A stretch of DNA of 64,000 bases, taken from the NCBI RefSeq assembly GCF_029227915.1, contig NC_079886.1, positions 5,456,001-5,520,000 of the forward strand, read 5' to 3'. The position numbers were made by a program, and so were the translations under genes. The DNA is from Hydractinia symbiolongicarpus (lineage: Eukaryota; Cnidaria; Hydrozoa; Anthoathecata; Hydractiniidae). The notes under the pieces are model-generated. The model worked only from the letters and a program-made list of their open reading frames with translations. It was not told the origin of the DNA and did no database searches. Shown here in pieces: positions 16,875 through 56,079 of the stretch. Within the stretch, counting starts at the first letter, position 1; every line of letters starts with the position of its first letter.

Positions 16875-18378
16875 AAAGACTGCAGAAGTTATCCTTACTA
16901 TTCTATCTAAATAATGCGTTGAATCTTCAATTTTTTTAAAAGATCCAGAAGAATCCGAGTTTTTTTAAAATATCTAAACTTTGTATATAAATTTAAAAAA
17001 TTGAAAATATTGAAAGCTGTGTCAATGTTAGAAGAATATCTTAAAGCTGTAAAAAACAACATAGTCACTCTGCAACCGTTGGAGAACATATGTTTTTGGG
17101 TGACACAGTCATATTTTATATTGGTCCCTCGATTATCTGCCTCTCGTGGTACACCCGCTTTAATATCAAGCTACTTACATTTTTTATCTTCCACATCGTG
17201 CGTTCAGTAATCATAAGTGAGAAATGGTAGGAAAAGAAAATTTTGCTGCTTCCACCAGTCAAAAGATATTGTTAACGAGTAACATTTCCTTGCGAAATAT
17301 CATTTCATCAAACATTTGTACTTGCAGGATGTAATAAACATGTTCTCTAAGGTGAAACTATATACATTCGTTTTCTTTATAACGCATTGACAATTAGATG
17401 ACGTTGACAATTAGATCCGTCATCTACAGAGCGGCACATCATGAAAACGATATCTCTAAAAAAATACAGATTTCCTGGTTCTCATACGAATCCTTTTTTT
17501 ATCTCTTACTAAATGTTTGTCGCCGAAACCTAAACGAAAACAAAAAATAAAAAATAAAAAAGTATTTAGATTTATTACAAAAGAGAAAAATTGATCTTCT
17601 AAAAAAGAATTTCCCAGTTTCACTTTTCAAAATCGTATGAATGTCCCCCCACCCTGTGCCCTCCCAATCATATGTTGTATTATTGATCTGTTTGGTGACA
17701 TACAGGGGTGATATACTAACCGTTATAAAGGATATACTAACCGTTGTTAGCTTTTTTTCTGTTTATCAAACTTTTCGTTTTTCTGTGTTCCTATCTTTCG
17801 GCTTATTTTGACGACTCTCAACGTACTCCGAATAACGCTTGTATCGCAAGAAAACAAGATGCAGAAGCTGCATATCTCGCTTTAAAAAGGTGCAACTACA
17901 ATACAACCAAAATGGTATATGCTACTTAGGATCTATGATTGACCAGTTATACGAAACATTAGGAGACATTTTAATAGTTAGTTATAAAAACTCAAGACAT
18001 TAAAACAGGTTATAGTTCAGTTGATAAGTTACGAGTTAAATACTAATACTATCCTCGCAAGCGAGATAGTAAGATATGCATCCGTTAAAAAAAACATATT
18101 TAACAAATATCTAAACACTAAACAAGGTTAATTATTAATGGTTGGTGATTTTTACGTTTTTTACGTTCTTATGATCTGAGCCAATGTAAAATTTGCTGGT
18201 AGAAGAAACCTATGTCAGTCTTTTAAGTGATTTATCCATTTTTATCTTGTCAGTGGAACACTGTTTCAAAAGCAGTTTCTTATTACACCCGTTTGACCTG
18301 TGATTCAGGTTAAAGAATATTTTAACAACTCAAAAAATATTCATTATTTAATGCAAACAAAAATACCGCAAAGAGAAC
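16875..18378. other. Mostly non-coding; two exon-like fragments
   Basis: No complete gene. Around 17001-17095 the plus strand reads LKAVSMLEEYLKAVKNNIVT, and around 17800-17914 it reads DDSQRTPNNACIARKQDAEA...KRCNYNTTKM up to a possible donor ATG|GTATAT. Both resemble the helical C-terminus of the upstream gene and may be further exons, but no acceptable acceptors tie them in. The rest is AT-rich with no recognised feature. Confidence 0.35.
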
Positions 18379-33300: not shown

Positions 33301-36300
33301 AAAATCAACCTAAAAATCCATTTTGTGGCGTGCCATGGCAGCCCTCAAAATAATTTTTGGAGACTCGTCGGACAAAATGTCCAATAGATTTCCGTCGTCA
33401 GGCCAGAATTATTGAATAGTGCTGGTCCTTTTAATCCACGAGCAAGCCTATTCATAGCCAACCGGACCATCCTAGCTAATTCACCGACTCATGAATTAAT
33501 TAAAAGAACTACGTAGACATAAATCTCTTTTGCCTGGCCCCCTCGTAGTTGGAAACCAGGTCTTACACAAGAAATTCAGCCATGCGGTTCTTAACTAATG
33601 CAGAGGTGAACGTCGACAGAGCACAGATGAAGCAAGTCTGCAAAAGATTAAGAGAGTCGCTATACCAGTAGACCCTCGATCATCGTGTTTGGGGTTCACG
33701 ATTTAAAACGTCCCTCACTTTTCTACTGCAAAATGAATGCGCATCAAAAGTTAACCTTGGAGCCCGTATCGCACGTGTAACATCCTTTGCACATGCATTT
33801 TACATCGCTAGCGTTAATTGATTTACACCTGCGAATCATCGCACACCTACTCCAAATATTCCTGAAAAAGCCTGAGTTTGGCTTTTAAATTTAAAATTAT
33901 TTAAAGCAAAATTATCATTCTTTGGTTAAAGAAATATGTTTCCTTTTTGTAGATATATAAATATATTTTATATATTTTATCATGTATTAAAAACCTTACA
34001 AAATTTTGGTTTACAGTATGCTATTGAAATGTTTTTAGGCATTTACGCACACTATGGAGTACGATACCATGATACAAAGTTACTTTAAAACAGAAATTTC
34101 ACCTGAATGTGCAAATTACCTTCCTTTGCGTTATGGAATGAACCCTCATCAGAAACCAGCAAGTTTATTTACCACACTCGATACCCTGCCCATATCTGTA
34201 ATGAATGGTTCCCCTGGCTTTATTAATTTATGTGATGCGCTAAACGCTTGGCAACTGGTGAAGGTGGGAAAATTGTATTCATTTAATGTCTGATGAAAAT
34301 TTTAGCGCCGTATCTGCATCTTCTGCAATGAGTAAAAATTGTTTAATTATTAGTGTTAGGGAAAGAGAAAGTAGAATAATCAATTGCTGGGCTTTTGACA
34401 AGCATATATTTTAAATTGCTGTGATGTCTAACATTTCATTCCAGGTATTACCAATCTATGAATCTGGAGATTGAAATTCAATAAAATATTGTACTGCTTT
34501 AATTAAATAACTGTGGCTTTTATTTATTAGGTGTTTGTTTTAGGTGTATAGGTAGTTTTAAAGTATGGATAATATTATTGTTAATCTGGCTGCTAAAAGC
34601 TATATAGAACAACTTTGTACTTAGTTAAATTAGTTTTTCACTAAAGGAACACAGAATTAATATATAATATTATATTTTTTAAAAATAGTGTTTCTGGAAA
34701 TAGAGCGTGTAAAAGAGAAAAGTGTGTCCTTTAATGATACTGCAAGTAATAATGTTAATGACCTAAATATAATATTTTTTAAAAAAAATTGTACACCCAT
34801 CCCACAAAGTTCATTGTTTTAAGAATATTTAGGAACTTAAAAGATCGCTCTCTTTGCCAGCTGCTGCTTCATTTAAACATGTCAGCCCTGCAGGTAGGTA
34901 ACTATTCTTTATTTTAATATACGTAAGTTGACTTAAGGTGAATTGCACCTATTGCTTTTTTCAAATGGCATGTGCTGCTTTTAAATTTTAAAGTCACATT
35001 TCAACAAACCATTATATACATAGCACCTAGAATAACATGTTCACAGGCTTGTATCCAAGCTAAGCAGTAAAACATTTTGTTTCTACTGTAAACAGGAGCA
35101 TATTTAACCAGTATGGCTAAGAAAACATCGCAATATAAATATTTAAATATCTGCCTGGTACACATGCTTGCCTAATTCTACTTCTCAGTACATGCATACT
35201 ATTCATTTTTTAAATGCGATGTTTTGTGCTATGTTTTTGTCATATAATTTTATGAATGCTTGTACAAAAGTTAAGAGTTTTTATTTGATAGGCACAGGTT
35301 CTAAAAAAACTAAAATTTGATAATATCCTAGAAAATATCCTAGAAAATCCTAAAGTTTTGTACAATATACGTCTGTCTGTCACACAAAATGGTACCGCAA
35401 GTAGTGAGATGCACAAATTGAAAATAATGGGCGATCGCGTGAATTTTTCCATGGGCCACTGACTAGTTTGGATGAAATTGATAAAACAAAGACAGTTTTT
35501 TTTCATTTTTCGAACATGGCCAAAAGTGTCAAATGGTCAATATTCTGCATTCAAGGAAAAGTGTCAAATGGTCAATACTCTGCGTTTAAAGTTGCTACTT
35601 TTGCACACACGTAGGCCAGGTAGAGAGTGTTAAAATTTGCTTGACATAATCAACGTTGGAACCCACAAAGATTCCAAAATTTGCTAAAGACAGCTGTGCT
35701 GACCTCAGCAACAATTAGAATGTTTCTAGAGCAAAATAACCTAAGATAGTCATAATTCCATATTCATAATTTTACTGGAACGGCTACCAAAAAAACTGTT
35801 AAAAACGGTTTACTTTGAGTGAAAACTGATTTCATATTGAATTCTGTCTGCTTATTATTTAAAAGTAACATTTAATGTCGTTAACATAGCTTGATATTGA
35901 TAAGTAGCTTAAAGTCATAACTCTGAAGCGAATATGCTTTATTAATAAATAAAATAAATAGACAGAAACTGTATGCATTTGAAGCTGCTGTTAAAACTTT
36001 CTCAACTTTATCATTCTAAGGTGCAGCTGTTGGTGTCCCACTGTCTCCAGCTGAAGCAAAACTCTGCATGGTGGATGATATGGATTCCTGTTTGAGTCCT
36101 CTTGCAATTGCCTATGCACGTGCACGCGGAGCAGACAGAATGTCTTCATTTGGTGATTTTATAGCTTTATCAGAATCATGTGATGTTGCCACTGCTAAAG
36201 TTATCTCAAGGGAGGTAAATATGATAAAATGTAACAAATGTAAAATTCAAAAAATAAAGCAGTATAATTTGTATGTGTTATCTGTTCTAAATGTATTTTT

Positions 36301-39300
36301 GATTAGGTATCTGATGGAGTTATAGCACCAGGCTATGAAGATGAGGCTCTTGAAATTTTAAAGAAAAAGAAATCTGGAAAGTATTGTGTTTTAACGGTGA
36401 GAGGCTGGTTGTTTTACATCAAACGTTGTGTGCAAATTGACACTGTCTTTTAAAATAAACAATTCCCCCCTTTTCCAAAAAGATAAATGCTGTAAAGAAT
36501 TTGTTTTGATTGGACAGCCTTAATGTTCTAAAAAACGTTTTTTACCAAGCCAGAAAGACAAACTGTCACTATTCCTAAAAAATATTTTTTTCAGATGGAT
36601 CCTAACTATGAGCCAAGTCAGATGGAATCAAGGACGTTGTACGGAATGCAACTAGAACAAAAAAGAAACAATGCATTGATTGATAAAAGTTTTTTCACAA
36701 ATGTTGTGTCTAACAACAAAGAGGTATATACTTTTATTGTTACTATTAGGGTATTCTACTGGTATTTTATGACTTGTTCTGCTCGTTACTCTGTTCTTTT
36801 TAACTAAAAAAAATGGGCAAATCCCAACTATATATGTCGACAGGAGCGGTGAAGTTGTTAACTAATCAGGTTCTAGCATAAAATATGTTTAAAAGTTTCG
36901 TTTTTCTAATGTATGCAAATATTTTTTTGAAGATGAAAGAGTGTATTCACAACTATTATATTCGAAATCTGCATTTTATGTTGTGTTAATCAAAAGCATT
37001 ATTCAGCAGTAAAATATGTGTTTGAAATAAATGTGCTGCTTGTTCACAGTTTAAGATTGTTCCTTCACGCGATGTTTGTTGCCTATCTTAAGGCCTAAAC
37101 TTTTATAACTTGCAATGCTAGACTTCATATGTTTTTTAGCTAACAGAAGATGCAAAGCGTGATCTATTAGTTGCCACCATTGCTGTGAAGTACACACAAT
37201 CGAATTCTGTTTGTTTTGCTAAGAGAGGACAAGTAAGTTTGAAGTAATGTGTGTGATATTTTATGTTTTTCTAGATTAGTTTTATTCTTAAGTAGGAGAA
37301 AAGTAGTTTTTTTAGTGTTCGTTTGGTGTTTGTTTGTTTGTTTTGAATCGTATAAATCGCTGTCATTCTTAGAAAATTTTTGCTAACAAACACACAGTGT
37401 GAGCAACTCCCTTTTTTTCTTTTTGAGATAAGATGGTTTTCATTTCAGGTTGTTGGGATAGGAGCTGGTCAACAATCTAGAATACACTGTGTTCGATTAG
37501 CCGGTGACAAAACCAACAATTGGTAAGATAACTTAATGTTTTGTTGTGACCAAGTTGTTATTTTCGCATTATTATACCTACAACCCTGGAACTGACATTT
37601 TAAAAAAGTGTCCGTTAGCAAAGGCTGGGATAACAACATTAAAAAATGCAACTATATTTTTAGTAAACGATATTTTCGTGATGAGGCGTATACCAGGACA
37701 TCGCTTCCAAACAATCATTCAAAAAATTAATAATTTCAACAATAACTTTAAAATGCGATCACGTCCCTAACAGGAAGTTCGCATTAAGAAGTAGCGTGGC
37801 CTACAGCCCGTAATAGTCTTAGAATTTAAGAAACAGGGTATGGCAACGTCAGTAAAAGTAGCATGGTTTAAGAATTATGTGCTAAGCAAATAACCTAACG
37901 CATGAGTCACCTCTGCAAAGTAAACGTTACCTAGAAACGGCGTTCTCAACTTCTTAGAACTATCTCCCTCTTTTCCAAACTTTATCAACCGTGATTGTAA
38001 TTGCAAAACGAAATACCTTAAATCTGTATTGTTGTTGTTTATATGATGATGTTCTTAAAAACTTTCATGATTCTCAACGATCTCTATTTTTCTTGTAGGT
38101 GGCTAAGACAGCATTCAAAAGTTTTGAGTTTGGTTTTCAAAAAGGTATATCGATACCTTTTTTGTTCAGTTGTTCTAATCTACGTTTATAACCATTACAG
38201 TTCATATACGAATTTCACGAAGACAGCACAGACGTATTTGTTGCCTTTCATAATTTAGGTGGCAACAACATATAGCTGCACCTGGAACTTTTTTTTTATT
38301 TCTGATAAATATTCAAAAATTGTTGTTTTTGTTAACGGTATCATAAAAACACGTGTGGAAACGCACTATTTTTTATGAGTTTCAGAATATCTCAAATCTC
38401 TGCATAAACTAAGCAAACAGTGAATTTTTTATGAATAGGGTGTAAAGCGATCTGAGATGTCCAATCTGATCGATGTTTATGTGAATGGTACAATTGGCAA
38501 GGTGAGTGTTTTCAGCTACAACTTGTATTTGCATGTCTTTTTTGATACATAGAATATGTATATTCTGCTTCACGTTAAGTAGACGAATTCCTACATTATT
38601 ATTTAGGATATGGAAAGGGAAAAATTTGAAGAAAATTTTGATGTTATACCGGAAGAGTTTACTGATGTAAGTGAACTCTTCATTTTTCTTTTTGCATTCT
38701 TTTCAGCAATGGGAGATATCAGAAGATGATAGTTACTATCCTGACAGAAATAAAACAAATATATTACTATTGTCTGGTAACATACTAGTACTGATTGCTA
38801 GCCTTTTGAAAAATGAAATGATGTAAATGGATGTTGCGTTTTTAGTTAACAGTTTTTTCATATTAGTGCTGTTTCATTCGTTGTTAACTATTCTAATTAC
38901 TGTACACATTTTGTTTTTTTGGAATACCAAAATTCTAGCAATGGGATCATTATTCTTTCTTCTCTATTGTTTTAAACAATAGGCCTTTTCTTTTTAACCT
39001 GGAATCACAGCCTGATATTCTTATAAAACATTTTCTTATCAAAGAAAAAGCCTTTATGTGTTTTTATTCTTTAGAAGGAACGCAAAAACTGGATTGCTTC
39101 TCTGTCAAATGTTGTGCTAAGTTCAGATGCTTTCTTTCCATTCAGGGATAGTATTGATCGTGCTGTCCAGGTTTGTAACTGTGTGTGTTGGACTGTGATA
39201 CAACCTGAAACTCTACCCAGATGCTTTTAAAGCAATTATTTTCGACCAGAGCGGGAATGAATTTTCTGTGTAAAAGGTAATAAATGTGAAGAGCCAGCAT

Positions 39301-40593: not shown

Positions 40594-40823
40594 TCAGCTT
40601 GTGACAAACGGTCGGTTCATATACTTGGGCGTAATGGCGTAATTTTCTGGGCGGATTGTGTCCTGTACACCAGGTTTTAAATTTTTCCACACCTGCAATT
40701 TTTCATTCGTGTGTTTTTTCTCCATATTAGCCATGTCTTTCGTAATTTTCTCTTTCCACTTTTCAATCATTTCAGTTAGTTCTCTGCGGGCATCACGATT
40801 CACTTTTATTCGACGTCGAGTTG
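40594..40823 (-). CDS. Terminal exon: basic cytosolic coiled-coil tail
   Basis: After acceptor GTTTTAG this exon reads TRRRIKVNRDARRELTEMIE KWKEKITKDMANMEKKHTNE ..., ending YMNRPFVTS with a TGA at 40594-40596. It is phase 1 and fits donor GAAG|GTATTG at 41275. If that donor is not used, the frame stops after GIAS at 41261-41263, giving a receptor with almost no tail. Both forms are possible. Confidence 0.6.
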
Positions 40824-43800
40824 CTAAAACACAAGGAATCCAAGTAACACGTCAGTTGTTTGTTTTGTTTTTCATAATTAAAGAACCGGATCTAAACATC
40901 AGCCTCGTTCCCAGGGCTTAATTTTAAGTGTGCAATAAAAAAATTAATAATCAAATTGATATTGAAGAGACGAGGCTATGGAAAAACTATATGCTTAAAG
41001 AACCGTCATCGAAATTTAAATACACTTTCCCTTGGTCTTCTGCTTAATTTGATTTTTTCACAGCTTTCTTGATTAGTTAATCGCATATTTTTAAAAACAT
41101 TCAATCCAATGAATAGTGTTCTAAAACTTCTCGGACCTTTGCCTTTGTTGTTCGGCTTTGTACACATGAAATGACCACGGCTAATGTTTGAGTGTCTTGG
41201 GACATAGGCGACCACTAAGTTTATGTCTGTGTGTGTTTGTGACAAGCAAAGTAGACTGAATTAACTGGCAATACCTTCAGTTGTATATTTGCGTTTCCAT
41301 CTTTTGAATCCTATATACCAGACGCTTGCCCCCACGCCAGTGAAGAAGATGAGCATGATAATCAACGTTACCATGGCAATTTTCATCTGTGGTGAATTAG
41401 CACTTGTCAGGCTTGTACTTTCAGCATTCTCTGGAAAATTGAACTAAAATAGAAAAGACTGTAAGAGGACACGTGAAAATGGTTCATCCTAAGAGAAATA
41501 ATATGTCGAGGTATTCAGGTGCGTCGCGTATACAATAGCAGTCGCTTAACTCCAACCTCCATGGAGGGAAGATAAAAAAGGTTCCAGTTAAAGAAAGCCT
41601 TTTCAAACAGAGAGGCATTTCCACTTCTTAAAACCTATTTGGTCAGGGAGTGTTTCAAACAGGAGAGGGGGGGGGGGGGGGGGCTGATTTCTTCTTGCTT
41701 CCACGCTATCCGACGTAAAATTCACTCAAGTACACAAATTATGGTTCGAGTTTAACTATGCGCATTAACGACCTCGTCCCCAGGATTTTGTGCTTCTCAT
41801 CTACACTGCAATTTTTTCATAGTTCTAGCAGCTAGGGTCACGCTTGAATACTTTAATCTAATGCGCATATTGTATAGATATCTAATAAATGCGTACAATA
41901 TACTAACCTTTAAAGCTGGCATGTATTTTTGAAACGCTAAAGCGATCGCAGTGGCGTTTGCTTTTATAGCGCTGTTAAAAAAATCTGCTGACGTAGACAA
42001 CTTCGAACTAAGCACAATTCCGTAAGATTTGCTTGTTTCTACAGTTCGTAACACAACCATTTGTGGTATATTAAACAGTTCCATATTCAAAGCAGCGTCG
42101 TATACATTAACTAACGCCCCGTCCACGTTTCTTGATAACAATACTGATGATACATTTTCAGGTTTTCTCAACGCTCTTACTAAAATAAATATAAAAATGT
42201 TTTAGCATAGTTTAACGACGTGCTTGACAATATGTACTTGTATTTGGTGGTCACTAACCTTTCGCTTGGCCTGTTTCCGCAATTTTTTGTTCTAAGCTTC
42301 CTTTTAAGACTGATATCTAAAAAATGCCAAAAATTACAATGCTGATTTACACTTCCTCGAATAGTTTTTGAAAATCTCGTTCCCATGTCTTTTTGAAATG
42401 TAACTTTGGAAGAACCTATAAGATTTTTTACTTACTTTTGAACCTAACATTTTAAAATCGAATTTTGAATTTTCTGTTTTCATGACAACCGTGGTTACAC
42501 TCCCTAAGAAGGTACTAATTATGATCATGCTTGCTAGAATCCAAAACATTGCAAATATTCGTCCTGGGATTGTTGTGGCGTGTTTGTCTCCATAACTAAA
42601 AGGAAAATTGAAAATTGCTTTTGATTAAATTTTTGATCAGTCTATGTCAAACTTTGGTAGAAATATTTATCGTAAGTTAGGTCACGCACTCTCCAAAAAG
42701 TATTGGTGACAGTGCATGCAGAGAAATACTTTTTTTTCAGAAATTCCATTTAAACCTTTAAACCGAAAATGTAGGGCAAACGTCCGATCGCACAAAATAT
42801 TTATTGATTCTTATTGGTATGAAAAAAATTCTTCTGTTAAGTTTTTATGAAGTAATTATGTAGGTTGTATTGCAAGTCCAGCACATATCTTTATATTGAC
42901 GTCAAATGTTAACATCTGTCAATCATATTTGCATCTTTATATTGACGTCAAATGTTAACATCTTTCAATCATATTTGCATTCAATCTTACCCAACTGTTG
43001 TCATGGTTACAAAGGACCAATAGAATCCTTGTAGTAAAGCACCTCTCAAAAAGTCTGGATGAAACTGATCGGAATTTTTGGATCGTTCCTAAAGAAGTTT
43101 CATAAAGCAGCATTAGAAGAATAACACATAGTTTTAGGTAGCCTCTATATACAAACTGTTTCTAGGGAATGGTTTGTTTACGTTTTTGCAGAATTCAACT
43201 ACCAAAATGCATTGCGAATTAGCTGTATAGAGAGAACGGGTAATTGACAGCCGCCACCAACCTAGTCCCCTGGGTTTTTTGCCTTCTTGATATGAGAGGG
43301 GACTGCGAAAAAATATACCTTGTATGTTTGAGAGACACAAAGAGGTATACTTGGCCTAAGTTTTTTGAGGTTCACTTAGTTAACTCACGTTAAGACTTAA
43401 ATTTCAGAAATACACACAAACTTACACAAATCCACAAAAGAATTCCACATATGACTACGAAGAGGGACATGATGAGGATGAAAGGTAAAATGGATGCGAT
43501 TTCTTTGATTTGTAACTCAACGAAGGTGTCAAAGGCGGGAACCATTGTAAAAAGAAAACTGCCTGGGTACGAAATAATAGGTACGAATGTTCCTGTGAGA
43601 TAACTTGTTGTACTATCATCTAAGAAGAACGGGAATGACAATGATGGCGAACCATTTATATCACTGGATGCTTCCTGTGATGTGTGTTTCTCGGCCCAGT
43701 TCCCCTTTCCTGAAACGAAGAAATAACGTTAAACAGTTTCTGTTTAACATGGGAATAAACACCCTCGATCTCAGTGCATGTGTTTTTTATATGAGAATAA

Positions 43801-46800
43801 ACATCCTTACATCAAAAAACGCTATAGGCCCTGGGATTAAGGTTGAGGACAAAAGTTTTGAAAATAAAGAAAAATTCACAATAAACAACAGTACCATTTT
43901 ATAGCAGACAAATCGCATCATTTTTTCAAAATCAAATCTCGAAATTTTTTAGCCTCAGACTCTTGTAGCCCTTTGATAATGTGTCTTGCAATTTAGAGCC
44001 TATTTTCTAGAATAATTTCAAACGTAGTCTAGTGACGAAACGTTTGCTTTTTAAAGTCTTGGTCTTATCTGAACCTCTTCCAAACTGAAACAGCGATTAT
44101 GATATTAATTTCATCCTTTCTTCTTTTAATATTGAGTTGAGTATTTGGTTTCTTTGTGCTCCAGCGTAGATGAAAATAGAAAGATTTAAGAAAAGGCGTT
44201 ACTCTTGTTATAAAGGCTAAACAATTAGCCCATTAGGTGTGAAATGCTTTAAAAGGTGCGCCAGTATACGTACCGTTGGTAACCCAATCTACAGTTGACT
44301 TCCTCTCCACACCATTCACTGAACACGTTTTGCAAACCTGCTCTATGAGACCGTCCACGACATCAACAAACAGACCTGTCAAAGTCCCATCGTCATTTCG
44401 GAATAAGTATGGTTTTTCCATGAAATAGTTTGTCGTTACCACCAGTGGACATATACAATTTTCTAAAAAATTGAAGCAAAAAGTAATAGTTTTATTGCTA
44501 TTGGTTTTTTGGGACGAAGGTTTGGTTTTTACCCAATAACAGAGCTAGATGGATCTTCCTGTAAAAAATTGGAATTAAACAAACTTTTCGCTTGTAGGAG
44601 AAGATATGAATTGAATCCAAATTGGACGTTTTGAATTCATTTTATAGGTATTTGCGGCTTCTAATATTTACAATTCAATGAGATACCTGTTTTCACAAAC
44701 GCTGACTCAATTCCATATCCGTCCTGATTGATAGCCTGTACATTTATTGTGTAATGACCAGAAAATACCAAGTCATTTATTGTCAAGCTGTTCTGATGGG
44801 CAGGTACCGACACGTTTTTTGTCACGGGATTATCTAAGTCATTAAATCCATATTTGGTGACCGTGTAAATGATGTTGTATCCGATCAAATCGCCGTAATA
44901 CCAATTAAAGGGGACTGGGTTCCATGAAATTGTGATGCTATTTGGAGCGGTCCGTGGTTGCACTTGAACATTAAAGAAGTGCCATGTTTGAGCTTAAAGA
45001 AAGAATATTTAAGTTTAAAATAAAAGTTCAAGATATCTCTGTTTACAACAAAAGCCAAGTCATTTGATTAGGCTGTTATCTTCGAGAAATTAAGTAAGGG
45101 AGATTGAGTACGAATTTATCATGTTTACTCACTGTTGCCCTTTGTACTCCACGTCGTCTTTGTGCAATGCAATCCTTCACCAACCTCGTTCTCAGGACAT
45201 ATTTTGATGACAAAATGATTAGCTGGTGCTAGCTCAGCTATCTGCACTCGATCTGAGGTGTAGGGAATTTTTGCGCTGAAATCTGTATGGCCGTTGGAAT
45301 CTCGTATTATGTACATATTGTATGAGACTGGCTGGCCGTTCATATACAATAAGGGGATTTTTTCCCATTGAATAAAGAGGTGACCAGGATTTATTTCATT
45401 GATGTTAATCTCTGGAGCATCAGGTGGCAAAACTGGTACTAAAATTAAACAAAAGATGAAATTACTTTAATGCTTTCGATCTTAATTAGCTCCCATGTTC
45501 CTTAGCCGAAAGGCGTTGACTTTTGACGATTATTTTAAGAAAGGGCGTTGGAACCACTTAATATTCAGCAATAGTGCTATCTTTCAAATCCTCAGGATTG
45601 GAATTCAACTACAGGAATTGCATTCGTTTTATAACGGAAGACATTAAATTTGCGGTAAAACTCATTTTAAAAATGTAATCTTATCTGTTTGGTACTTTGT
45701 TTTTCATAAAAAGTTAATCAATAAAGTGTAAAAAAATATAGTTTGTAGCAGTGAGATGTGTACATTTGAAGCATTACCAATGTTATAATTGTCACATCGA
45801 GCACTTCCAAATTAGGTAACATGACAATTTTAAAACGACGATAAAAAAAAGGACTGAAGAAGAGAAGAAAATCCAAAACGAAAATCGTGAACAAAAGCAG
45901 TTTTCCCGTTATTTTTCAAGCATGGAGAAGGGTCAAATAGTTAAAACTCTGCAGCCGGCACACGTAGGCCAGGTAGAAAGCTTTTAAATTTGCTAGTTTT
46001 AATCTGCAGCACACCCTCCTTTGTTCAGTCAAAATTGAAAAAAAAATGCGAAACTGGCAAAGAAAATAAAAACAAGCCGTTAAACATACAAAATTTAGAA
46101 AAAAAATTATATTCCATTTTTCTTCGTGCTTTTACAAGTAATATTTCCATATTATTATTACTATTATTATTATTATTTAGTCCAAATATTTATACAGGAT
46201 ATAGTCACTTCAGTATTAGAAATACTGTTAAAAATGTGGGTCTTGTATTCTGAATGTATACATTAGGTAATACACCGGCTAGCCTACCCAATGTCTCTCA
46301 TATGGCTTGGCTTGAACCGTAGCTGTGGTAAAAAACTTGCTAAACATTTCGACGTTATCCCCACAACCTCAAAATAGTTCTAGTCACGAAGAGATTTACC
46401 TTGATCTGCGCATGCACATGTTAAATAATAGTGTTTTCTCAGTCGTTGATAGCCCCGTTCTTATTTCGTAAGGTCACTAATATATGAACAGCGCACGCCG
46501 ATAACTTGTCCGGATAGCGTTTGGGTAGTTGAAGAATTAACATAAAATGGTGTTTTAAAAAAATAACTCACATTGTGGTAAAGTCTTAACGGAGACAACT
46601 TTACTTGGTACACCATTTCCCCACGCATTGTACCCCAATACTACCACTCTATATAAAGTTCCTGGGTTTAAACCGGTAACCAACGTGCTTGTAACGTTCA
46701 TCCATACTGTCCGTCCTTGATAGTGACTTTCCCGCACATCAGCATAGCGAAAATATATATAGTATCCACCCAGTGTAAAGTTGTGGGTGTTGTTTTTGAA

Positions 46801-49800
46801 AACATTGAAGTTAGAGTTATCGATGCTTTTCCATGAAATCTCAAATGAGTTGGAGGATAAAGGAGTTGCTGAGTTGATGTCAGGTTCTTCTTTTGGGACT
46901 AAAAAATTAAAAATTAACAGTCAAAAATGTTACCACGGCAGTTATAACGAAATGTCGTCACGATTAATATTTGTTACACTAAACTTGCTAACGAAAGTCA
47001 ATTAAAATGAGCAACGCCCCTTTTCTAACGTTGAATACCATGAAAAAATTTTACGTTACCTTCTCCCAATAGCGATAAATTTGTCAACAAACTTTCATTG
47101 ATTGAGACTTCATATGAATTAAGTTCGATGGCCAACTTTTGCATGGATCCATGTTTTTGTAATTCGTCCAAAAGATAAATATATTCTTCCTTGTTTATTG
47201 AGTTATACACAATGTCAATGAAAGATGTGAATTTGTTGTTTCTAAAAGACACAGAAATGAAAAATGAAATTCCGAAACGCGTGTGTACCTGAGTTGAACT
47301 TCATAGTTGATTGTTACAGAATACATTTGCATCATGTGATTTATGCGGATGTAAAGAAACTCACATCAACTGAAATGACTCTACACTCACACTGCTGACG
47401 CTAGAGTTGATTGGAGCAAGTGACTCTTCATAAAACAGAAATATCTAAATACATAAAAGTTGTTTTTATTTTGTGCTGAAATATATGGATGTCATAGTAT
47501 TCGTTAGACATTTACTTTTTAGCACGACGTCCACTTTGAAATTCAAATTTTAGGCGATAAAAGGATGAATCTATATTATAACACCCGTATACGTCTGTTT
47601 TGTTGCCACGTAAAATGGTAGCACAAATAGTGGGAGGGACGCAATGTGGTATAAAAAGAACGTGCGAACTTTGGATTTTTCCACGGGCTACTGTCTAGTA
47701 TCCTAAAACAATATAACAGTTTTCCAATGTTTCACATAACCAAGCAAAAAAAAAAAATCTTACGCTGTTGCTAATAAATGCTACTAAATCATCATATATT
47801 GCATTCGGAGGGTACAGAAGTTGATTTTCCCAAAGTTGCTCTGTTAATACTCCTTTAAGTTTCAACAATGTTTCTAGGGTAAAAAAATATTTATTAAGAT
47901 TTTTTGCACGGATTCTTGATGCAATAAAATACTTAGAGTGGTAAAAAGTTGCTATTTCCTTTAATTTTTATATATTTTCCTTTAACTATTACATATTTTC
48001 CTTTAATTATGACGTATATTTTTAATTATTATATATTTTCCTTTAACTATTACATATTTTCCTTTAATTATGATGTATATTTTTAATTATTATATATTTT
48101 CCATATTTTTAATTATTATATATTTTCCTTTAACTATTACATATTTTCCTTTAATTATGATGTATATTCTTAATTATTACATATTTTTCTTTAAATATTA
48201 CATATTTTCAAACTTGTCTTACTATCGGAGCAAAAGCTCAGTTGGCACATCATTTGGGCGCTAACCTAATGGTTACTGGTTCAAATACCGCTCGGTTCAA
48301 GTGTTTTATTTTTGACCAATAGATATCGTCTACATACTAAAAATTCTAAATATATTTAATTCTAGTACGGTGTTCCACTACTATTCCATTTTACTACTGT
48401 TCTATGAATTGCATATTGGCTCGTTCGTTTACAGCATGCTACCATTTTTAAATTTCTTACGTTGGCCTCAGATATTTCTATTGTTTTATTAAGGGATCTC
48501 CATTGCTGACATCAGCATGCTGAGACTTTCATCGCTCTATATATAATTAAATTAAGAAGTTTAGGTTAAATAGACTTTCTAGTGACAGCAAGATCATTGG
48601 TTGATGCGTACTGTAAACAATGCAAATCAATTCTACCCTGGAACGACATTTCCACCAAACAAAACAAACAAAATGCTTAAAATCAGAGTTAGCTCAGAAT
48701 ACTATGCTCAGTGGAGATGAGTTAGTGGCGCCCTTTAATTTCAACACTCTCTTCATTATTTGGTTAAATACTCTTTTTTAACCCACTGACATTTATATGA
48801 ATGCAGAATAGTAATCTCAACATGTCTCAGCTAATCAAAATTTGCAGTTAACCTTCTAGCTGGATAGAAATGTTGGTGTATTTATTTATTTATTTATTTA
48901 TTTACTTTATTCATTCAATACTTATACAGGATTGCCAATTCAGAATATATACAAGTATTACATGTACAATTCTGTAATTAATGTGGGTTCTGTGAAAAAT
49001 AAAATTGTCAAAAATTAAAAGATTGATATTTAGGAAGAAAAAAGACTTTAAACCAAAATGGATGGATAATAAAAAGAGAAAAAAGAAAAAAAAACATGAC
49101 TGAAGGTAGGATAGAAACTACCACTAAGAGATGTAAGGTAAAAGATTTCTAAGCTGATACGACACAGACGCACAAAGAATAAATTGAAGAAAAAAAGAAT
49201 ATCTATAATGTTAGATAAGCAACAAAAAAACTGAAATGACTGCTAATTAGAACTTAATACATATTAAAATTTGTTTGATTTCGAATATTTACAAGAAATT
49301 TATTATAAATAAAGCGCCATTGTAAAAAAATGACGCTTTTCCAACTCGAGATGTAATTTTGGCAGTTTTAACGAGATCGTGTTGTTTCTTGTTTGCTTGG
49401 TATGATTCATTGAATTAAGATAGTTCACGTAGTTCTCACATACTTCTCCGTTGATCGATTTTCTAGTAACAAGTAACGCATTACAAGATGGTAATTTGTC
49501 GTCTAGGTTTCGACCGTAGTCAATAATTCTACAAGCTCTAAGATGAAGTTGTAGCAGTTTGAAGCTTTTAGTTTCCCACAGTCAGTTTTACAAAACCACA
49601 GTATGTAACCATAGGCTGTATCATACTTCTGTAGATAGCTGAAGTTGAGACCTTGTTATTTCTAAGTCGAATTTTCGTAAGAGGCTAACTTAATTTATGG
49701 CTTTCCTGAAGGTATTTTCGAAGTTTTCGTTCAGGTTCGAGTTTGGGTCCAGAGTGATACCAAGATATTTGTATGACATGGTAAAAAGTATGTTGCTGGA

Positions 49801-52800
49801 TCCATATGTTCAACGTTGTTGGCTGCAGTTGAAGATTTTTTGCAGTACCAAAAAGCATGCATTCCGTTCTTCCAGGTTTTAGATTGAGTAACATTTCGTT
49901 CTCACCACACCAATCGTATATTCCGATGATAAACATGACTTAATTATATACGTATACTTCCCTGCAACAAAGAGGACTGTATCATCAGTATACATGATAG
50001 CATCTGAGTGCTTAAGAATTTCGAATAGATCGTCAAAAAACAGAATGAATAGTACGGGTCCTAAACTTGACCCGTGTGTTATTCCGGAGGTTACTGGATG
50101 GTGATTGGCAAAGTGCATTATTACATGTGACACATTGAGTCCAATTGAACAAATAGTTTGTGAACAAATCCAGTTCACGTTCTTTAACACCATACCGGGA
50201 TAGTTTGGATAGTAACTTTGAGTGACTTAACATATCAAAAACTTTAATGATAAGATCCAAAAACACTGCACAAACTACTTTTTTCTTGTCTCAGTAAAAT
50301 AAGTTGCCGCAAGCTCAGTGGAGCGTCGTGATCTAAAACCAAATCGATTGATGTTATAATTTAAAAACATAACTGTATATGTACTAATCGTTCAATAATT
50401 CTGGAAATAACCAGTATGACAGATATTGGTAGATAGTTGTCGATGTCCACTGATGCACCTGATTTATAGAGTGCGGTAACTTTGGTGCGTTTTCCAATAA
50501 GATGGGTACGTTGATGATGATAGAGAGGTATTGATAAGGTGTGTCAAATACTCGACGATTTAGTAGTCACCCTGGTGTGTCATCCAAGCAAACTGTTTTC
50601 TTCTGTTACAGATTTCCAAGAAGTTGTTTTACTTCAGCGACAGCATTGAATTCGAACCTTTTTTTTGTTAAATTCTTTGCATGTTAATAGTACTTCCAGG
50701 TAAAATCACCTGATAGAAAATTTAAATTCTTGAGTTTAACGATGACGATTTCGGAGAAGAAGCCGCAAAAACCCTCAGCGATCGCTTTCGGATGGGATGT
50801 AGTTTTTCCGTCAATTGTGAAAGAAGCTGTAGTTTCTTTCTTACATTTGTTCGCATCGCATTACAGAATATACTTGGGTCTTGAGCAGATTCTTCCAGTA
50901 ATGTTTTGCTATAGTCTTGTTTACATTTCCGAACGTCTAGGTTAACTCTGTTTCACACTGATTTGTATAATCCAATGTCTTTGGGAGATTTTCGTTTTCT
51001 TGATTTTCTATGAAGTTTATCTCGTAGATTCATTTCCTTCTTTATATCGTATGTAACCATTTACATGGTTTTGCTCGGATTTTCTTCTCAATACTTGGTG
51101 CAAGAATATCTAAACTGTTTAGGAGAGCGGTTTTCATAAAGTCCCATTTGTCATTCACATTAATATAATCGTAAAACGGTTTCCAATTAATATTTATCAA
51201 AAAATCACACATAGATTTGGTATCGTAATGGCGGTAATTTCGGCATTTGATGTTCTTCTGCTGAAACTTCTGAGGGCTCATCTTGCGTACACAGCATATA
51301 ATGTCATGATAACGAAGCTGGTATGACGTCAGTGGTTGCGATAATCGATGAATTTGTTGTAAGAATAATGTCGATTAACATTTCACTGTTTCCCATTATT
51401 CTTGTCGGTTTGTTGATGATTTGTTTAATCCATAAAGAGATAATCAAATTTTTAAGTTCTAAGTGGTCTTTCTTTACAAGATAGTCCATATGATAATCAT
51501 CATGTCTTTATTGCTTACTTTAGATAATATTTCTGCAAAAATTGCGTTATGGAATCTCACAGGGATACTTGCTTTTTATCATAGAATATCGAAAGTGATA
51601 TAGCTATTGCTATTTCGAAAGGAAGATTGGATCCCAACACAAAAATAATTGTTTCCCTGAACGGTGAAATTGTGAATTAACCTAGCTTGATTGCAGCTAA
51701 GGAAAACTCAGATCAGAAGATAAAGATTGACGATCACAAAGCAAAATGCAATACTTCGGTTGACGTTGGCTCATATGAAAGAAAAGAACAGTATGATCAA
51801 CAAGGAGTTGACAGAGGCGAGTCAACATAAAAAGGATTTAGGGAAATTTTAAATTTATCGAACGATATGATTCCGAAACAATAAGAAGTTAAAAAGAAAA
51901 ACTTTTGAGGCCGAGGGAAACTTAGCATGCTTGATTGGTAAAGTTTAGTAAAGCGAAAGCCTCCATTCAATTCTGTATTATAATACGCTTGTGTGAGTGA
52001 CTGTGGTTGTCCACGGTACAAAAATCATCAGTCACTATCTTATGGCTCTCGCCTTGCTTCACTAAAGGAAGGCATGAAGCTTAGATTTTTTTCATCCTTT
52101 TGGCGTTTTGAATTAACATAAAGTGGCATATGCAATATTTATACCGAAATAAATGAATTTTTAACAATGGTAAATTTTGGTAAATTTTTATTTCACATGT
52201 TGTGGGCCTTGGAACTTTTGAGTAAAAATATTGTGGACGATGGCATTAACTATATATATACTAAAAGAATTGATTTTTGTTGTTTTGAATGTTATGACTG
52301 AAACATTTTTTTGACATTTCACGTAAACATTTGTGAAGGATGACCATATACAATGTATCAAAAGATGACAGTATTGACATACCGAAGTGATTAATTCTTC
52401 TCCATTTATACTCGATCTATTTTCATAAATTATGATTTTTTGGGTAAAGAAAATATACAAAATGTCAAAAAAAGGATTTTTTTTGATTCGGTTTTGCTCG
52501 CACAAATCCGTTGTTTGTTTACATTTTCTGTAAACCTCTGCGGGAAAGGACTGCATGCAATGTGCTAATGTGAAGAATGATATGCAATAGACAGAAATAA
52601 AGGAATTTAGTTGGTTATGCTTTATATGTTGCGAATAGTGGGTTTTAAAAGTTTATGGTAAACATTGTGGTTGTATAAAATGAACCGAAGATAGATTATT
52701 ATTGTTTTTTTAAATTTTTAATAATTTTTGTGTCGAAGGACAATATGCAATACCTGAGATCAATCATTTTTTGTCCAATTAGATTTTTCACCTTTCAAGC

Positions 52801-55800
52801 TGTTTTTTTTATTATGTAAACTTCTGTGACAGAGGACTGTATACGATTTGATATTTTGTGTAAAATTTTATGAGTAGCGATGGAAGCTCGGACCGAATAG
52901 GGTTAACAGCACTAAATTTCACCAGCCAGAAAATTTCTTATGGCTTATTCCTTTTTTTAAAAAATTTTACTATGACATAATAAATTTATCCCCCCCTGTT
53001 TTAAATTTTAAGTTTAAGTTCTTGCTAAAAAGAAGAAAGAAAAGAAAAAGAAATTTAGCCGAGAATCCGATTATATCAGAGTGCTGTTACTTTTTCTCTC
53101 AAATGTCACTTCGGCATACTTTAATCAAAAAGATAAACTGAACTGACCTGGGCATGTTTCATTAATTGGTAAATCGTCACACGGCATTTTATCCACGTAT
53201 TCTCCAAAACATGACAGTCCACCATACATTGGTGGAGGTTCCAGGCAGGGGCGATAACGCAAATGGTGTCGACCATTCAATGGATCGGTGCAAACAGGAC
53301 ACGAATTCCATGATGTCCACTGGCTGAAGCTTCCATTGACTAATAAAATATTGGGTAAGAAATGAACAACCATTTACAAACGAATCTAATTACGAAAGGT
53401 GTTTAAATATAAGATAGCTTAATGTTTAAAAGCTCGACAGACAAAGTCTAGATTAAATGCTATAACTTATCCACGATAAAAAAGTCCGCTTTAGATAATA
53501 TTGGACCAAAAATATCTAGTTACCACTTCTTTAAAGTTTCTTAAAATTTTATAGCCGAATGACAACAACCTTTTTAAAAGGTTGAGGTTGTTGTAAGTAT
53601 TTTTCTGTTTGCAAACAGATGACGTATTCCATACGTACTGGGACAACATTGCACATTGCACGATCCTGTTTCTTCAACTATGTTAAAACACGGATTGCCA
53701 TCATACATTGGTATGGGATTCGTGCATGTTCGATTTCGTGTTTTTATCCCTCCTCCGCATGTGACTGAGCAAGATGACCAGCCTGACCAATCAGATAGAT
53801 CACCATGTACTAAATAAGCATGACTATATCTGAATCCAAGAAACTCTGTAGGAGCGCATTTAAGCTCTATAGGTTGGTAGCAAAATAGAAAAAGTTCACG
53901 AATATCACGAAACTTTACAAAATAGAATGGTAACGGAAAAAGAAATATATTAGAAAGCTGTGAAGGAGAGCACAGAAAGAAAAAAGAAGTACCAAGTAAG
54001 GTGTAGGTAAAAGTAAACAATAAAACATATCGATGCAAAACCTTACCTGGACATTTCTGCTCATTGCAATATCTTTGTCTTCTGCTATCTCCACTACATG
54101 GGGGATATTGGCAGTATCGACTTTGATATTGGGTCCCGCTTCCACATGTGGTCGAACATGCTCCCCAAGATGTCCACTGACTAAAGCCTACATCATCTAA
54201 TAAAAAAGAAATAATTTATCGATAGACGGACGTTTGATGGGATATGTAATGACTACAGTTTTTAGTTTATATGTACTAGTTGTCGCACAGTGCACAGTAT
54301 AGTATAGCATATATTTTTCAGTTCTGACATTTTTGCCTGGTTATTTTTTGAGTCTTTAGGAGAGAAAAATAAATATAAAAATATAAGAACGAGAAAAATA
54401 TATGTCATATTGTACGAGGTTTCAGTGCGATAGCTGGTTTTTCATATCAAAATGAAACAAAATGCCAAATAAATCGTAAGTCTCTTTTCCAAGAGGTTTG
54501 TTGTAAATTTTCAATCAAAGGCGGGAATATTTTTGATGAAATTTTGATGAAATAGACAACAATCGAAAGACAAAGAAGCAAACAATAAACGTTAATTTAC
54601 CGCGACAATAACACAATAAATTAATTTAGTGTAGGTTGTAACTTTTACACATTAAATTTTATAAAAAAAATACGGACAATAAAATTACATATGTCACAGA
54701 AACACAGACTGATATTTTTATGCTAATATTAAACATCACTTTTATAATTATCCAGTCTTGTCTTCTACGAATAGTCAATGTTAGCCAGTGAGATAGGATG
54801 TATAGAGTGAAAAGTTACAACTCGGTGAGTGTACTCTCTAATAACATTGACATACCTTGAGTATAGCAGTTACACAATCTTCTGAAGCCCAGTGGTGGAG
54901 CTACATCACATGAAATCTCCTCCGGGGTGAGCAGATAGCCGTTACAAGCACTAGTTGCCACTTGATATGAAGGATCAAACTTGTTGTTCCATGTTGGTAT
55001 TGAAAAAATAGAACAAGATACCCCCTGAAACGTGAATGCTTCCACTCGATTGGCTGTATGTATATCTGTTCCGCATTTTACACTTGCGCCTGTATAAAAG
55101 GTGCTTACAATCGAATATAAAATGCAACACATAGTAAAAAAAACCGGGATAGTTGTGTTGTGTTGAAGACAAAATAGGCTAGCATTGATCACGTATTATC
55201 TGGAACAATTCTGGTAGAAAATTGTTACAAATATACCTTTTCCATTTAGAAATTTAAAGTTAAAATATTGTTAATCGGGCATCCACGATGCTCAAATTTC
55301 TTTTTGCTTTTATAACCTATCTCAGACCCTCCCACCCCCTGATCTAATCAGCTTTTATATAATCGCAATTACTTTTAAGTTGGACGTTCGAAGGACCGAG
55401 AAATCGGTCCCACTAAGTGAATTAATCTTTTGTAAACATTACTTTGACACAAGAGGTAAAAATATCTAATCCAGGGTTCAATCGTTGCTCGTTTCAAGTT
55501 AATTATAGTAATTCCCCATTATTCAGGGTCCCACATAACGCAAGTATACTGGTATTCAACAGGAGAAAACAGTAAAAAGCTTTCTTTGATTAAGCGAAGG
55601 GATTTGGTGGTAGTAAAATTGAGGTACCTAAGCTTGTACAATAATTTTCGCAGCTTTGGCCATCATTTGCAAGTACAGTTCCAGTGCATGGCTTTAAATG
55701 ACATGGTTTGTAATCTACGTTGCTCCCAGCACATGTGGAACCAGTTGAAGATGGTGTAGGATTGTCACAGTAGCGCCATCTTGACTGTCGACCCAAGCCA

Positions 55801-56079
55801 CATATTTCACTGCATTCTATGCTCCATGGACCCCACACGCTCCATCCGCCATTAATTACTGTTGAGCTCACTGTATGGAAAGGAATGAAACTCAAAAGAA
55901 AGAGTTGAAACAAAATCGACAAAGAAAGGACTTTTGAAAAAAAATGATTAAAATTATAAACAAATGTATTTGAAATAGAAGAATAATTTGAAGAAGAAGA
56001 AGAAAAGGAGAAGACAAAAAATATTTTTCTTACCTATGTTTACGGTGACAACGCTGAAGATAAGAAGTGTACCAACCAT
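40594..56079 (-). CDS. TSP1-FN3 receptor with glutamate-receptor topology and K+-channel selectivity filter
   Basis: Exons in transcript order (plus coordinates): 56034-56079, 55628-55870, 54856-55089, 54047-54196, 53639-53809, 53148-53339, 47764-47873, 47365-47444, 47060-47241, 46572-46898, 45133-45438, 44687-44992, 44274-44462, 43811-43830 (microexon), 43426-43707, 42991-43088, 42436-42595, 42259-42316, 41908-42179, 41275-41443, 40594-40823. The sum is 3825 nt (1274 aa), all in phase. Order: signal peptide; TSP1; Cys-rich domain (97-174); TSP1 x3 (to 345); helical region (346-469); FN3 x3 (470-782); S1-like lobe (783-920); TM1 (924-946); pore loop FYWSFVTMTTVGYGD (filter 977-982); TM2 (992-1016); S2-like lobe (to about 1160); TM (1164-1188); basic cytosolic coiled-coil tail. 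The filter predicts K+ selectivity. The usual animal SYTANLAAF motif and the S1 ligand-binding Arg block are not seen, so the ligand is unknown. It is probably a plasma-membrane receptor channel. Confidence 0.78.
41275..44462 (-). CDS. Channel module: S1, TM1, K+-type pore, TM2, S2, last TM
   Basis: S1-like: PLVVTTNYFMEKPYLFRNDD GTLTGLFVDVVDGLIEQVC (exon 44274-44462), a 20-nt microexon (PIAFFD), then SLSFPFFLDDSTTSYLTG, FVPIISYPGS and TM1 ILPFILIMSLFVVICGILLW (exon 43426-43707). Pore: QGFYWSFVTMTTVG (42991-43088) joins YGD across a phase-2 intron to TM2 RIFAMFWILASMIIISTFLG (42436-42595). S2-like: ISVLKGSLEQKIAETG (42259-42316), then RKPENVSSVLLSRNVDGALV, MVVLRTVETSKSYGIVLSSK and LAFQKYM (41908-42179). 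Last TM: IAMVTLIIMLIFFTGVGASV then KRWKRKY (41275-41443). The basic C-terminal flank sets the tail in the cytosol, which fits glutamate-receptor rather than two-TM K+-channel topology. Confidence 0.82.
42887..42980. repeat. 46-bp tandem duplication with CRE and octamer motifs
   Basis: Two nearly identical units (42887-42932, 42933-42978) each contain a palindromic TGACGTCA (42897-42904, 42943-42950) and an ATTTGCAT octamer (42927-42934, 42973-42980). The duplication lies in the intron just downstream of the exon that encodes the first half of the selectivity filter, on the transcribed (minus) strand. Confidence 0.8.
43811..43830 (-). CDS. 20-nt microexon restoring the channel reading frame
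   Basis: Flanks are acceptor CCTTAATCCCAG and donor GTAAGG. It converts phase 1 (end of exon 44274-44462) to phase 0 (start of exon 43426-43707) and adds seven residues (G)PIAFFD. Without it the two well-supported neighbouring exons cannot be joined in frame. I found no alternative donor or larger exon in the 44273-43708 interval. Confidence 0.55.
44687..46898 (-). CDS. Three fibronectin type III domains, one per exon
   Basis: Exons 46572-46898, 45133-45438 and 44687-44992, all phase 1-1. FN3-1: FEISWKSIDNSN, GYYIYFRYADV, LVTGLNPGTLYRVVVLGYNA, GNGVPSKVVSVKTLP. FN3-2: PPDAPEININEINPGHLFIQ W, PVSYNMYIIRDS, ELAPANHFVIKICPENEVGE G. FN3-3: PRTAPNSITISWNPVPFNWY Y, LIGYNIIYTVTK, SGHYTINVQAINQDGYG. 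The conserved Trp, Tyr and Leu of FN3 strands B, C and E-F are all present. They lie directly N-terminal to the channel module. Confidence 0.9.
45890..45985. repeat. Dispersed repeat, partner of 35.5 kb
   Basis: It shares ordered motifs with 35495-35640 (GTCAAAT-GT, CTCTGC, CACGTAGGCCAGGTAGA). It lies in the intron between the FN3-1 and FN3-2 exons. Confidence 0.45.
47060..47873 (-). CDS. Helical juncture between TSP1 and FN3 domains (GAIN-A-like?)
   Basis: Three exons (47764-47873, 47365-47444, 47060-47241) encode about 124 residues: ETLLKLKGVLTEQLWENQLL, FLFYEESLAPINSS, then FTSFIDIVYNSINKEEYIYL LDELQKHGSMQKLAIELNSY and NESLLTNLSLL. The pattern (FIDIV..N.I......LL.ELQ..GS..KL) resembles helical subdomain A of GAIN domains in adhesion GPCRs, where it also follows TSP1 repeats. 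No GPS cleavage motif (H-L/M-S/T) follows. The resemblance is by eye only. Confidence 0.6.
47570..47698 (+). mobile_element. 129-bp Helitron-like element, copy 3
   Basis: It starts TCTATATTATAACACCCGTA after an A and ends TGGATTTTTCCACGGGC..., then CTGTCTAG followed by T. The TGGA-TTTT-TCCA stem-loop 12-13 nt before CTAG is the Helitron 3' hairpin. It lies in the intron between exons 7 and 8 of the channel gene. Confidence 0.68.
47960..48205. repeat. AT-rich minisatellite
   Basis: Tandem units built from TATATTTTCCTTTAACTATT and ACATATTTTCCTTTAATTATG, about 45-60 bp per higher-order unit, in the large intron between the TSP1-4 exon and the helical region. Confidence 0.75.
48222..48300 (+). 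mobile_element. tRNA-like sequence, probable SINE head
   Basis: GGAGCAAAAGCTCAGTTGGC fits a polymerase III A box and D arm, and GGTTCAAATACC fits a B box and T loop, about 45 nt apart. The acceptor stem does not pair well at the 3' end, so a functional tRNA is unlikely. A tRNA-derived SINE or tRNA pseudogene fits better. Confidence 0.45.
48877..51489 (-). pseudogene. CR1/Jockey-like LINE, decayed, inside the channel gene's large intron
   Basis: Minus-strand order: endonuclease end (LIISLWIKQIINKPTRIMGN SEMLIDIILTTN, DVIPASLS) at 51489-51304; linker at 51281-51042; RT (FLDLIIKVFDMLSHSKLLSK LSRYGV, SSLGPVLFILFFDDLFEIL, YTDDTVLFVAG) at 50266-49879; post-RT (ENEMLLNLKPGRTECMLFGT) at 49936-49685. 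The catalytic YADD is now YTDD. It ends at a TATT microsatellite (48877-48905), the typical LINE 3' tail. Frame breaks make it inactive. It has the same orientation as the host gene. Confidence 0.85.
51490..53147. other. Intron sequence, nothing further recognised
   Basis: This is the 5' part of the 5.3-kb intron between exon 6 (TSP1-4) and exon 7 of the channel gene. I saw no coding potential, RNA gene or clear repeat; the LINE 5' end may extend a little way into it. Confidence 0.4.
53148..56079 (-). CDS. Ectodomain exons: signal peptide, TSP1 repeats 1-4 and Cys-rich module
   Basis: TSP1-1 (exon 55628-55870): GGWSVWGPWSIECSEICGLG, then RWRYCDNPTP and CHLKPC. The Cys-rich module (exon end plus 54856-55089) has SCENYC, VKCGTDIH, GVSCSIF, SACNGYL, ISCDVAPP and RRLCNCY, a disulfide-rich domain I cannot name. 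TSP1-2 (54047-54196): FSQWTSWGACSTTCGSG. TSP1-3 (53639-53809): LSDWSGWSSCSVTCGGG. TSP1-4 (53148-53339): FSQWTSWNSCPVCTDP. W-x-x-W C-mannosylation motifs are present in all four, and C-x-x-(S/T)-C-G O-fucose sites only in repeats 2 and 3. Every exon is phase 1-1, the classic shuffling pattern. Confidence 0.85.

Follow-up and report, generated by a model that had tools for sequence, protein, structure and literature searches.

A stretch of 64,000 nucleotides from Hydractinia symbiolongicarpus (contig NC_079886.1; here called the window, with positions counted from its first letter) contains on its minus strand a gene that probably encodes a K+-selective subunit of an ionotropic glutamate receptor (iGluR)-like channel, with an adhesive ectodomain and gated by ligand or strain. 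The gene runs from 56079 to 40594 over 15.5 kb and consists of 20 exons coding for 1268 amino acids (aa), with one terminal stop; 19 of 19 introns are GT-AG and every phase is compatible. Thrombospondin type 1 (TSP1) repeats, a Cys-rich domain, a SEA domain and fibronectin type III (FN3) domains precede a core built of two lobes (S1, S2), three transmembrane segments (TM1-TM3) and a pore loop (P). The 20-exon splice and Pfam bear out the coordinates, strand and domain order given by a first-pass annotation, made from the sequence alone, to which the SEA domain and a 5.3 kb intron with apparently decayed reverse-transcriptase sequence are additions. A relative found by homology search, P0001, has 1268 residues, of which 1186 are identical to the window protein, with 0 gaps, and is encoded on a single 4208-base contig (source tag lgn, taken as Logan assemblies of public reads). 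Both belong to a large animal family that pairs a K+ filter with an iGluR core; the window gene, from Hydractinia, is a member with a putatively adhesive ectodomain.

The available data support a two-lobed, iGluR-like core whose filter carries the K+ signature. Pfam recognizes Ion_trans_2 in the window protein (E 4.3e-13), and a hidden Markov model (HMM) of the family, built without the window gene and P0001, gives 270.6 bits, with homology over S1-TM-P-TM-S2-TM. The filter reads TTVGYGD, following the T-x-V-G-Y-G-D pattern of K+-selective channels, and its pore motif, FYWSFVTMTTVGYGD, is interrupted by an intron after GTTGG (42991/42595). In the structure predicted for P0001, the segments flanking the pore form a bilobed clamshell with high confidence, as the first-pass annotation had anticipated. 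The model helices (123-136, 138-159, 171-187, 200-234, 372-402) and the hydropathy peaks follow the order TM1-P-TM2-S2-TM3, TM3 being the equivalent of M4, and an iGluR fold with M4 is thus predicted with high confidence; in Foldseek, the ligand-binding and transmembrane domains with M4 align along their full length to solved animal iGluRs (AMPA, kainate, NMDA, delta). The signal-like start and the extracellular modules would place the ligand domain outside the cell. The pore and S2 of bare family members align to the GluR0-like proteins P0008 (hhalign E 2.4e-25) and P0039 (hhalign E 5.3e-21), and Pfam Lig_chan matches 37 of 37 scanned bare relatives at E <= 0.01. Their consensus after the filter, IISIFTAxVTTSLTA, is similar to SYTANLAAF, the gate motif in animal iGluRs; the window gene has IISTFLGSVTTVV at this position. 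P0039 also bears a precomputed PF00850 (histone deacetylase) domain in the same protein as the GluR0-like K+ receptor, possibly by false fusion of adjacent genes. A voltage-gated K+ channel was considered and rejected: hydropathy leaves no space for S1-S4, and PDB sequence matches (best 60 of 265 and best 60 of 284) cover mainly the pore.

The 20-exon model was fixed by alignment to P0001. A complete reading frame on 4208 bases, set against 15.5 kb in the window, makes this contig most simply a spliced transcript, the sole alternative being an intronless copy. The first-pass annotation's claim of one gene linking all domains stands, the single spliced form of the relative holding every part; its one transcript from 56079 to 40594 is seen in this close relative and not in the source animal itself. 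A 17-exon, 1163-aa model with a wrong exon 5 acceptor (53866) and without the three SEA exons was ruled out by P0001, and separate genes for ectodomain and channel were rejected because P0001 carries all parts. P0001 begins at the same Met as exon 1; an additional exon may lie upstream in the window gene. For a chance control, the family HMM was built from the alignment without the window gene and P0001. It matches six separate open reading frames (ORFs) of the window at E <= 0.1, all of them exons of the gene and scoring between 11.8 and 45.8 bits (lowest for TM3, at E 0.009), against a top score of 8.4 bits in the shuffled control (20 windows, two-base blocks). The 58-base exon 17 was unmatched in this ORF search. 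Outside the gene, the 64,000 nucleotides gave no match at E <= 0.1, and a second gene copy within the window was rejected for this reason. The exons are as follows.

Exon 1, 56034..56079, minus strand: start Met with a hydrophobic stretch resembling a signal, aa 1-15 (hydropathy peak aa 3-21)
Exon 2, 55628..55870, minus strand: TSP1 repeat 1 and beginning of the Cys-rich domain, aa 16-96
Exon 3, 54856..55089, minus strand: Cys-rich domain, aa 97-174
Exon 4, 54047..54196, minus strand: TSP1 repeat 2, contains CSTTCGSG
Exon 5, 53639..53809, minus strand: TSP1 repeat 3, contains CSVTCGGG; acceptor set by P0001
Exon 6, 53148..53339, minus strand: TSP1 repeat 4
Exon 7, 47764..47873, minus strand: SEA domain part 1, located via P0001
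Exon 8, 47365..47444, minus strand: SEA domain part 2
Exon 9, 47060..47241, minus strand: SEA domain part 3; NKF aligned to the GSV motif of relatives
Exon 10, 46572..46898, minus strand: FN3 domain 1, one phase 1-1 exon
Exon 11, 45133..45438, minus strand: FN3 domain 2, one phase 1-1 exon
Exon 12, 44687..44992, minus strand: FN3 domain 3, one phase 1-1 exon
Exon 13, 44274..44462, minus strand: first half of S1 lobe, aa 783-845
Exon 14, 43426..43709, minus strand: second half of S1 lobe and TM1, aa 846-940; Tyr882 at the Arg-anchor column
Exon 15, 42991..43088, minus strand: pore helix and filter start (TTVG, 43001-42991)
Exon 16, 42436..42595, minus strand: filter end (GYGD, 42595-42586) and TM2
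Exon 17, 42259..42316, minus strand: start of S2 lobe, aa 1027-1045
Exon 18, 41908..42179, minus strand: S2 lobe, aa 1046-1136; Asn1070 at the family Asp column
Exon 19, 41275..41443, minus strand: linker and TM3 (M4 equivalent)
Exon 20, 40594..40823, minus strand: cytosolic tail and stop codon

Three homology searches gave at least 151 distinct proteins among the matches listed; setting aside 12 other channels or GluR0-like references and adding the window gene leaves 140 family sequences. Two of the searches scored only candidates sharing most words, and one family search covers the best 120 of 196 proteins, so further phyla may sit in the remaining 76. The filter is nearly invariant: TTVGYGD in 136 sequences, TSVGYGD, TTLGYGD and TTVGFGD in one each, and none in P0080. 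The latter, probably an incomplete model, and the other channels P0009-P0011 and P0040-P0046 stand outside the counts over 139 rows given below. Among the matches listed, nearly all named sources are cnidarian: Anthozoa (Nematostella, Acropora, Stylophora, Dendronephthya, Xenia and Oculina among others) and Medusozoa (the hydrozoans Hydra, Hydractinia and Clytia; the scyphozoan Rhopilema), with one named hemichordate, Saccoglossus (P0141), whose copy may indicate that the class is older than the cnidarian-bilaterian split. Nematostella P0004 and Clytia P0037 hold TSP1, FN3 and the core within one protein. The database names of P0004, P0007, P0013, P0020, P0026 and P0047 include PTPRQ, sidekick-2, Cubilin, contactin-3-like and Kv subfamily F member 1, and members may consequently be misnamed in expression studies.

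A tree was computed from a manual selection of 50 rows among the 141 in the alignment. The FN3-bearing rows group together (25 rows, support 100/99), as do the CUB-Ig rows (7 rows, support 100/98). The CUB-Ig group includes anthozoans, Hydra, Hydractinia and Rhopilema, and this class therefore predates the Anthozoa-Medusozoa split; the FN3 group includes anthozoans and Clytia, the latter on a long branch, and the same probably holds for it. Two long rows, Clytia P0037 and Saccoglossus P0141, have uncertain places in the tree. The window gene lies inside the FN3 group, also on a long branch, and its nearest row besides P0001 is at path 3.1; its position as neighbour of P0038 was flagged by the tree program as a long-branch join and is not trusted. 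P0090 and P0091, with EGF-type ectodomains, are paired (99/99) near the tree base, at a weakly supported place (85/29).

In GluR0, AMPA receptors and binding proteins, an Arg of S1 holds the ligand carboxylate, and an acidic residue of S2 holds the ligand amine. The Arg column was defined by P0008 and P0039, kept outside the 139-row counts, and was placed by MAFFT alignment rather than by coordinates. In both MAFFT alignments it holds Phe in 71 of 139 family rows, Tyr in 58 and Arg in one (P0139); Lys occurs in none or in one (P0141, second alignment only). The window protein has Tyr882 there and no Arg or Lys within SLSFPFFLDDSTTSYLTGTFVPIISYPGSFLFTM, in agreement with the first-pass suspicion that the canonical ligand Arg is absent. 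At the S2 acid column Asp is present in 136 of 139 rows, and Asn in the window gene (Asn1070), P0001 and P0038 only. An aromatic residue at the Arg column together with the retained Asp suggests that amines lacking the amino-acid carboxylate may be ligands in the wider family. The window gene, as far as its sequence tells, has lost both amino-acid contacts (Arg to Tyr, acid to Asn), and glutamate is unlikely as its ligand.

This loss of both anchors would also fit a K+ leak channel, constitutively open or independent of voltage, whose clamshell only joins subunits and whose ectodomain anchors the protein at contacts. However, the clamshell is retained in the model with high confidence, S1 and S2 remain close to P0001 (7/123 and 6/123 differences), and the wider family keeps the S2 acid; we regard a leak channel as unlikely, though deserving serious attention. 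The second possibility is a K+ receptor gated by glutamate or another amino acid and acting like GluR0 or AvGluR1. The predicted fold, as in the GluR0 ligand core, the same type of filter and the hhalign match to P0008 speak for it, but the Arg of both GluR0-like references is replaced by Phe or Tyr in 129 of 139 rows in both alignments, which makes such gating quite improbable. A plain glutamate receptor was rejected, the canonical Arg being missing.

The ectodomain was assigned mostly by Pfam. TSP_1 is matched at E 2.8e-30 (stretches passing alone: three in the window protein, four in P0001) and fn3 three times (E 5.4e-21), and these stand where an LIVBP-type amino-terminal domain would be, none being found by Pfam at E <= 1; the proposed replacement of the usual domain by TSP1/FN3 is thus upheld. 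The Cys-rich domain (aa 97-174) has no Pfam match and resembles, by eye, the stretch between TSP1 repeats of Clytia P0037. CSTTCGSG in TSP1 repeat 2 is a POFUT2-type site, and two of the four repeats carry such sites (CSTTCGSG; CSVTCGGG). POFUT2 is the enzyme that fucosylates TSP1 repeats; the start of a POFUT2 gene lies in the window at 2-640 on the minus strand (PDB match to GDP-fucose protein O-fucosyltransferase 2, E 2e-42), and its presence on one contig with the TSP1-bearing gene may be chance.

The product of exons 7-9 (47873-47764, 47444-47365, 47241-47060) was recognized as a SEA fold. The SEA HMM was made from 13 segments picked by their GSV motif, the presence of which there is no finding, and its E-values refer to a two-sequence database. 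G-S-V is the cleavage motif of self-cleaving SEA domains. Unlike MUC16-type SEA domains, the window gene and P0001 have NKF at the position of the relatives' GSV motif, and the domain therefore does not appear to be of the self-cleaving kind. Adjoining the SEA exons, an AT-rich tandem array with units of ~21, ~61 and ~87 bases was noted at 47959-48209.

Loss of the GSV motif and of the S2 acid, and the long branch of the window gene, would also suit an adhesion receptor with a pore that has ceased to conduct. Against this, the filter is intact and the P-loop with TM2 shows 0/77 differences from P0001, while other parts have changed (9/57 in TSP1 repeat 3, in addition to S1 and S2); such a pattern argues for a functional pore, and a silent one seems very doubtful to us. 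The TSP1 exons are separated from the SEA/FN3 exons by the 5.3 kb intron (53147-47874), whose apparent decayed transposon sequence could suggest that separate genes were wrongly joined or that the gene has decayed, but P0001 holds all parts in one contig and P0004 and P0037 have TSP1, FN3 and core in one protein, so this is hardly credible. The reverse-transcriptase-like decayed ORFs in this intron (51700-49300, minus strand) were judged by eye, and the one checked against Pfam had no match.

In the preferred explanation, a K+-selective channel with an adhesive ectodomain, the gene would encode one subunit of an expected tetramer. Its pore would be upside down compared to ordinary K+ channels, with the pore loop entering from the cytosol and facing the extracellular clamshell, and the TSP1, Cys-rich, SEA and FN3 modules atop the core would most likely bind matrix or adjacent cells. 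It is proposed that a small extracellular ligand, or strain transmitted via the ectodomain, closes or reorients the clamshell; TM2 would thereby be pulled, a K+ conductance would open and the cell would hyperpolarize. Several points weigh against this explanation. Lig_chan in the window protein (E 1.8e-6) reaches 28.2 bits, below the cut-off of 30.8; PBP or Lig_chan-Glu_bd families had no Pfam match at E <= 1. The predicted structure is that of one P0001 chain rather than of the window protein, and its whole-core Foldseek TM-scores were 0.36 to 0.50 (query length), with root-mean-square deviations of 8 to 13 A, among the matches listed; this reflects either a placement of lobes and membrane part unlike that in solved receptors or an error of the model in this respect. 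In theory, the P0001 contig might instead come from a retrocopy lacking introns. With Arg absent and Asn at the S2 acid column, the window gene may bind nothing and may be an orphan or constitutive channel, and K+ selectivity is a prediction from sequence and model. A joint reading of the family goes further, and we lean slightly away from it as a whole: an undescribed, ancient and expanded cnidarian class of inhibitory K+-selective iGluR-like receptors, older than the cnidarian-bilaterian split, with an aromatic residue for the amino-acid Arg and the acidic amine contact mostly kept, would respond to amines other than amino acids, to contact or to strain, its ectodomains having been reshuffled through phase-1 exons into bare, CUB-Ig, EGF and FN3/TSP1/SEA forms.

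Compared with GluR0 and the prokaryotic K+-filter receptors, the window gene has a large adhesive ectodomain and lacks the anchor Arg; compared with solved animal iGluRs, it has a K+ filter and lacks both the LIVBP-type domain (Pfam) and the canonical Arg. AvGluR1 of a bdelloid rotifer is glutamate-gated, and the Arg is missing in the window gene. AvGluR1 shares with the window gene the eukaryotic iGluR architecture and K+ signature filter (PMC12332018; here and below, statements on papers refer to the passages covered). GluR0 from Synechocystis has two transmembrane segments (PMC12332018), whereas model and hydropathy give the window gene a third helix after S2. GluR0 and AvGluR1 are named as the glutamate-receptor-like channels with a K+ filter in this 2025 review of K+ channel modules. 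The first-pass annotation held this filter to be known in glutamate receptors from these two only, which is not upheld as stated: 135 further listed sequences carry the exact TTVGYGD, and a 2010 survey had already described prokaryotic receptors (Group 1) in which the filter is potassium-like (PMC2950845), so that outside animals the combination is known beyond GluR0. Among open papers, searched by titles and abstract openings (subscription papers and supplements lie outside this scope; two of the listings cover 20 of 29 and 20 of 386 papers), no description of the K+-filter iGluR-like family was found. In the passages covered, one iGluR phylogeny (PMC6307864) contains none of the terms potassium, GYG, selectivity filter and pore and does not describe the family; another (PMC12226733) has no fibronectin or thrombospondin, and its potassium passages contain no such cnidarian receptors; a survey of cnidarian thrombospondin repeats (PMC5446238) has no occurrence of ion channel or fibronectin. 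A large animal family that combines an iGluR core with an intact K+ filter would provide a test set for the origin of excitatory cation receptors from K+ pores and a candidate for fast inhibition in cnidarians, and the ectodomain of the window gene would couple ion flux and adhesion modules in a single chain.

Elsewhere in the window, numerous long ORFs at 2225-17000 on the plus strand may form one large multi-exon gene; three of them, checked against Pfam, had no match. At 34039-36322, also on the plus strand, lie exons of the purine synthesis bienzyme AICARFT/IMPCHase (Pfam E 2.3e-14, 2.5e-8).
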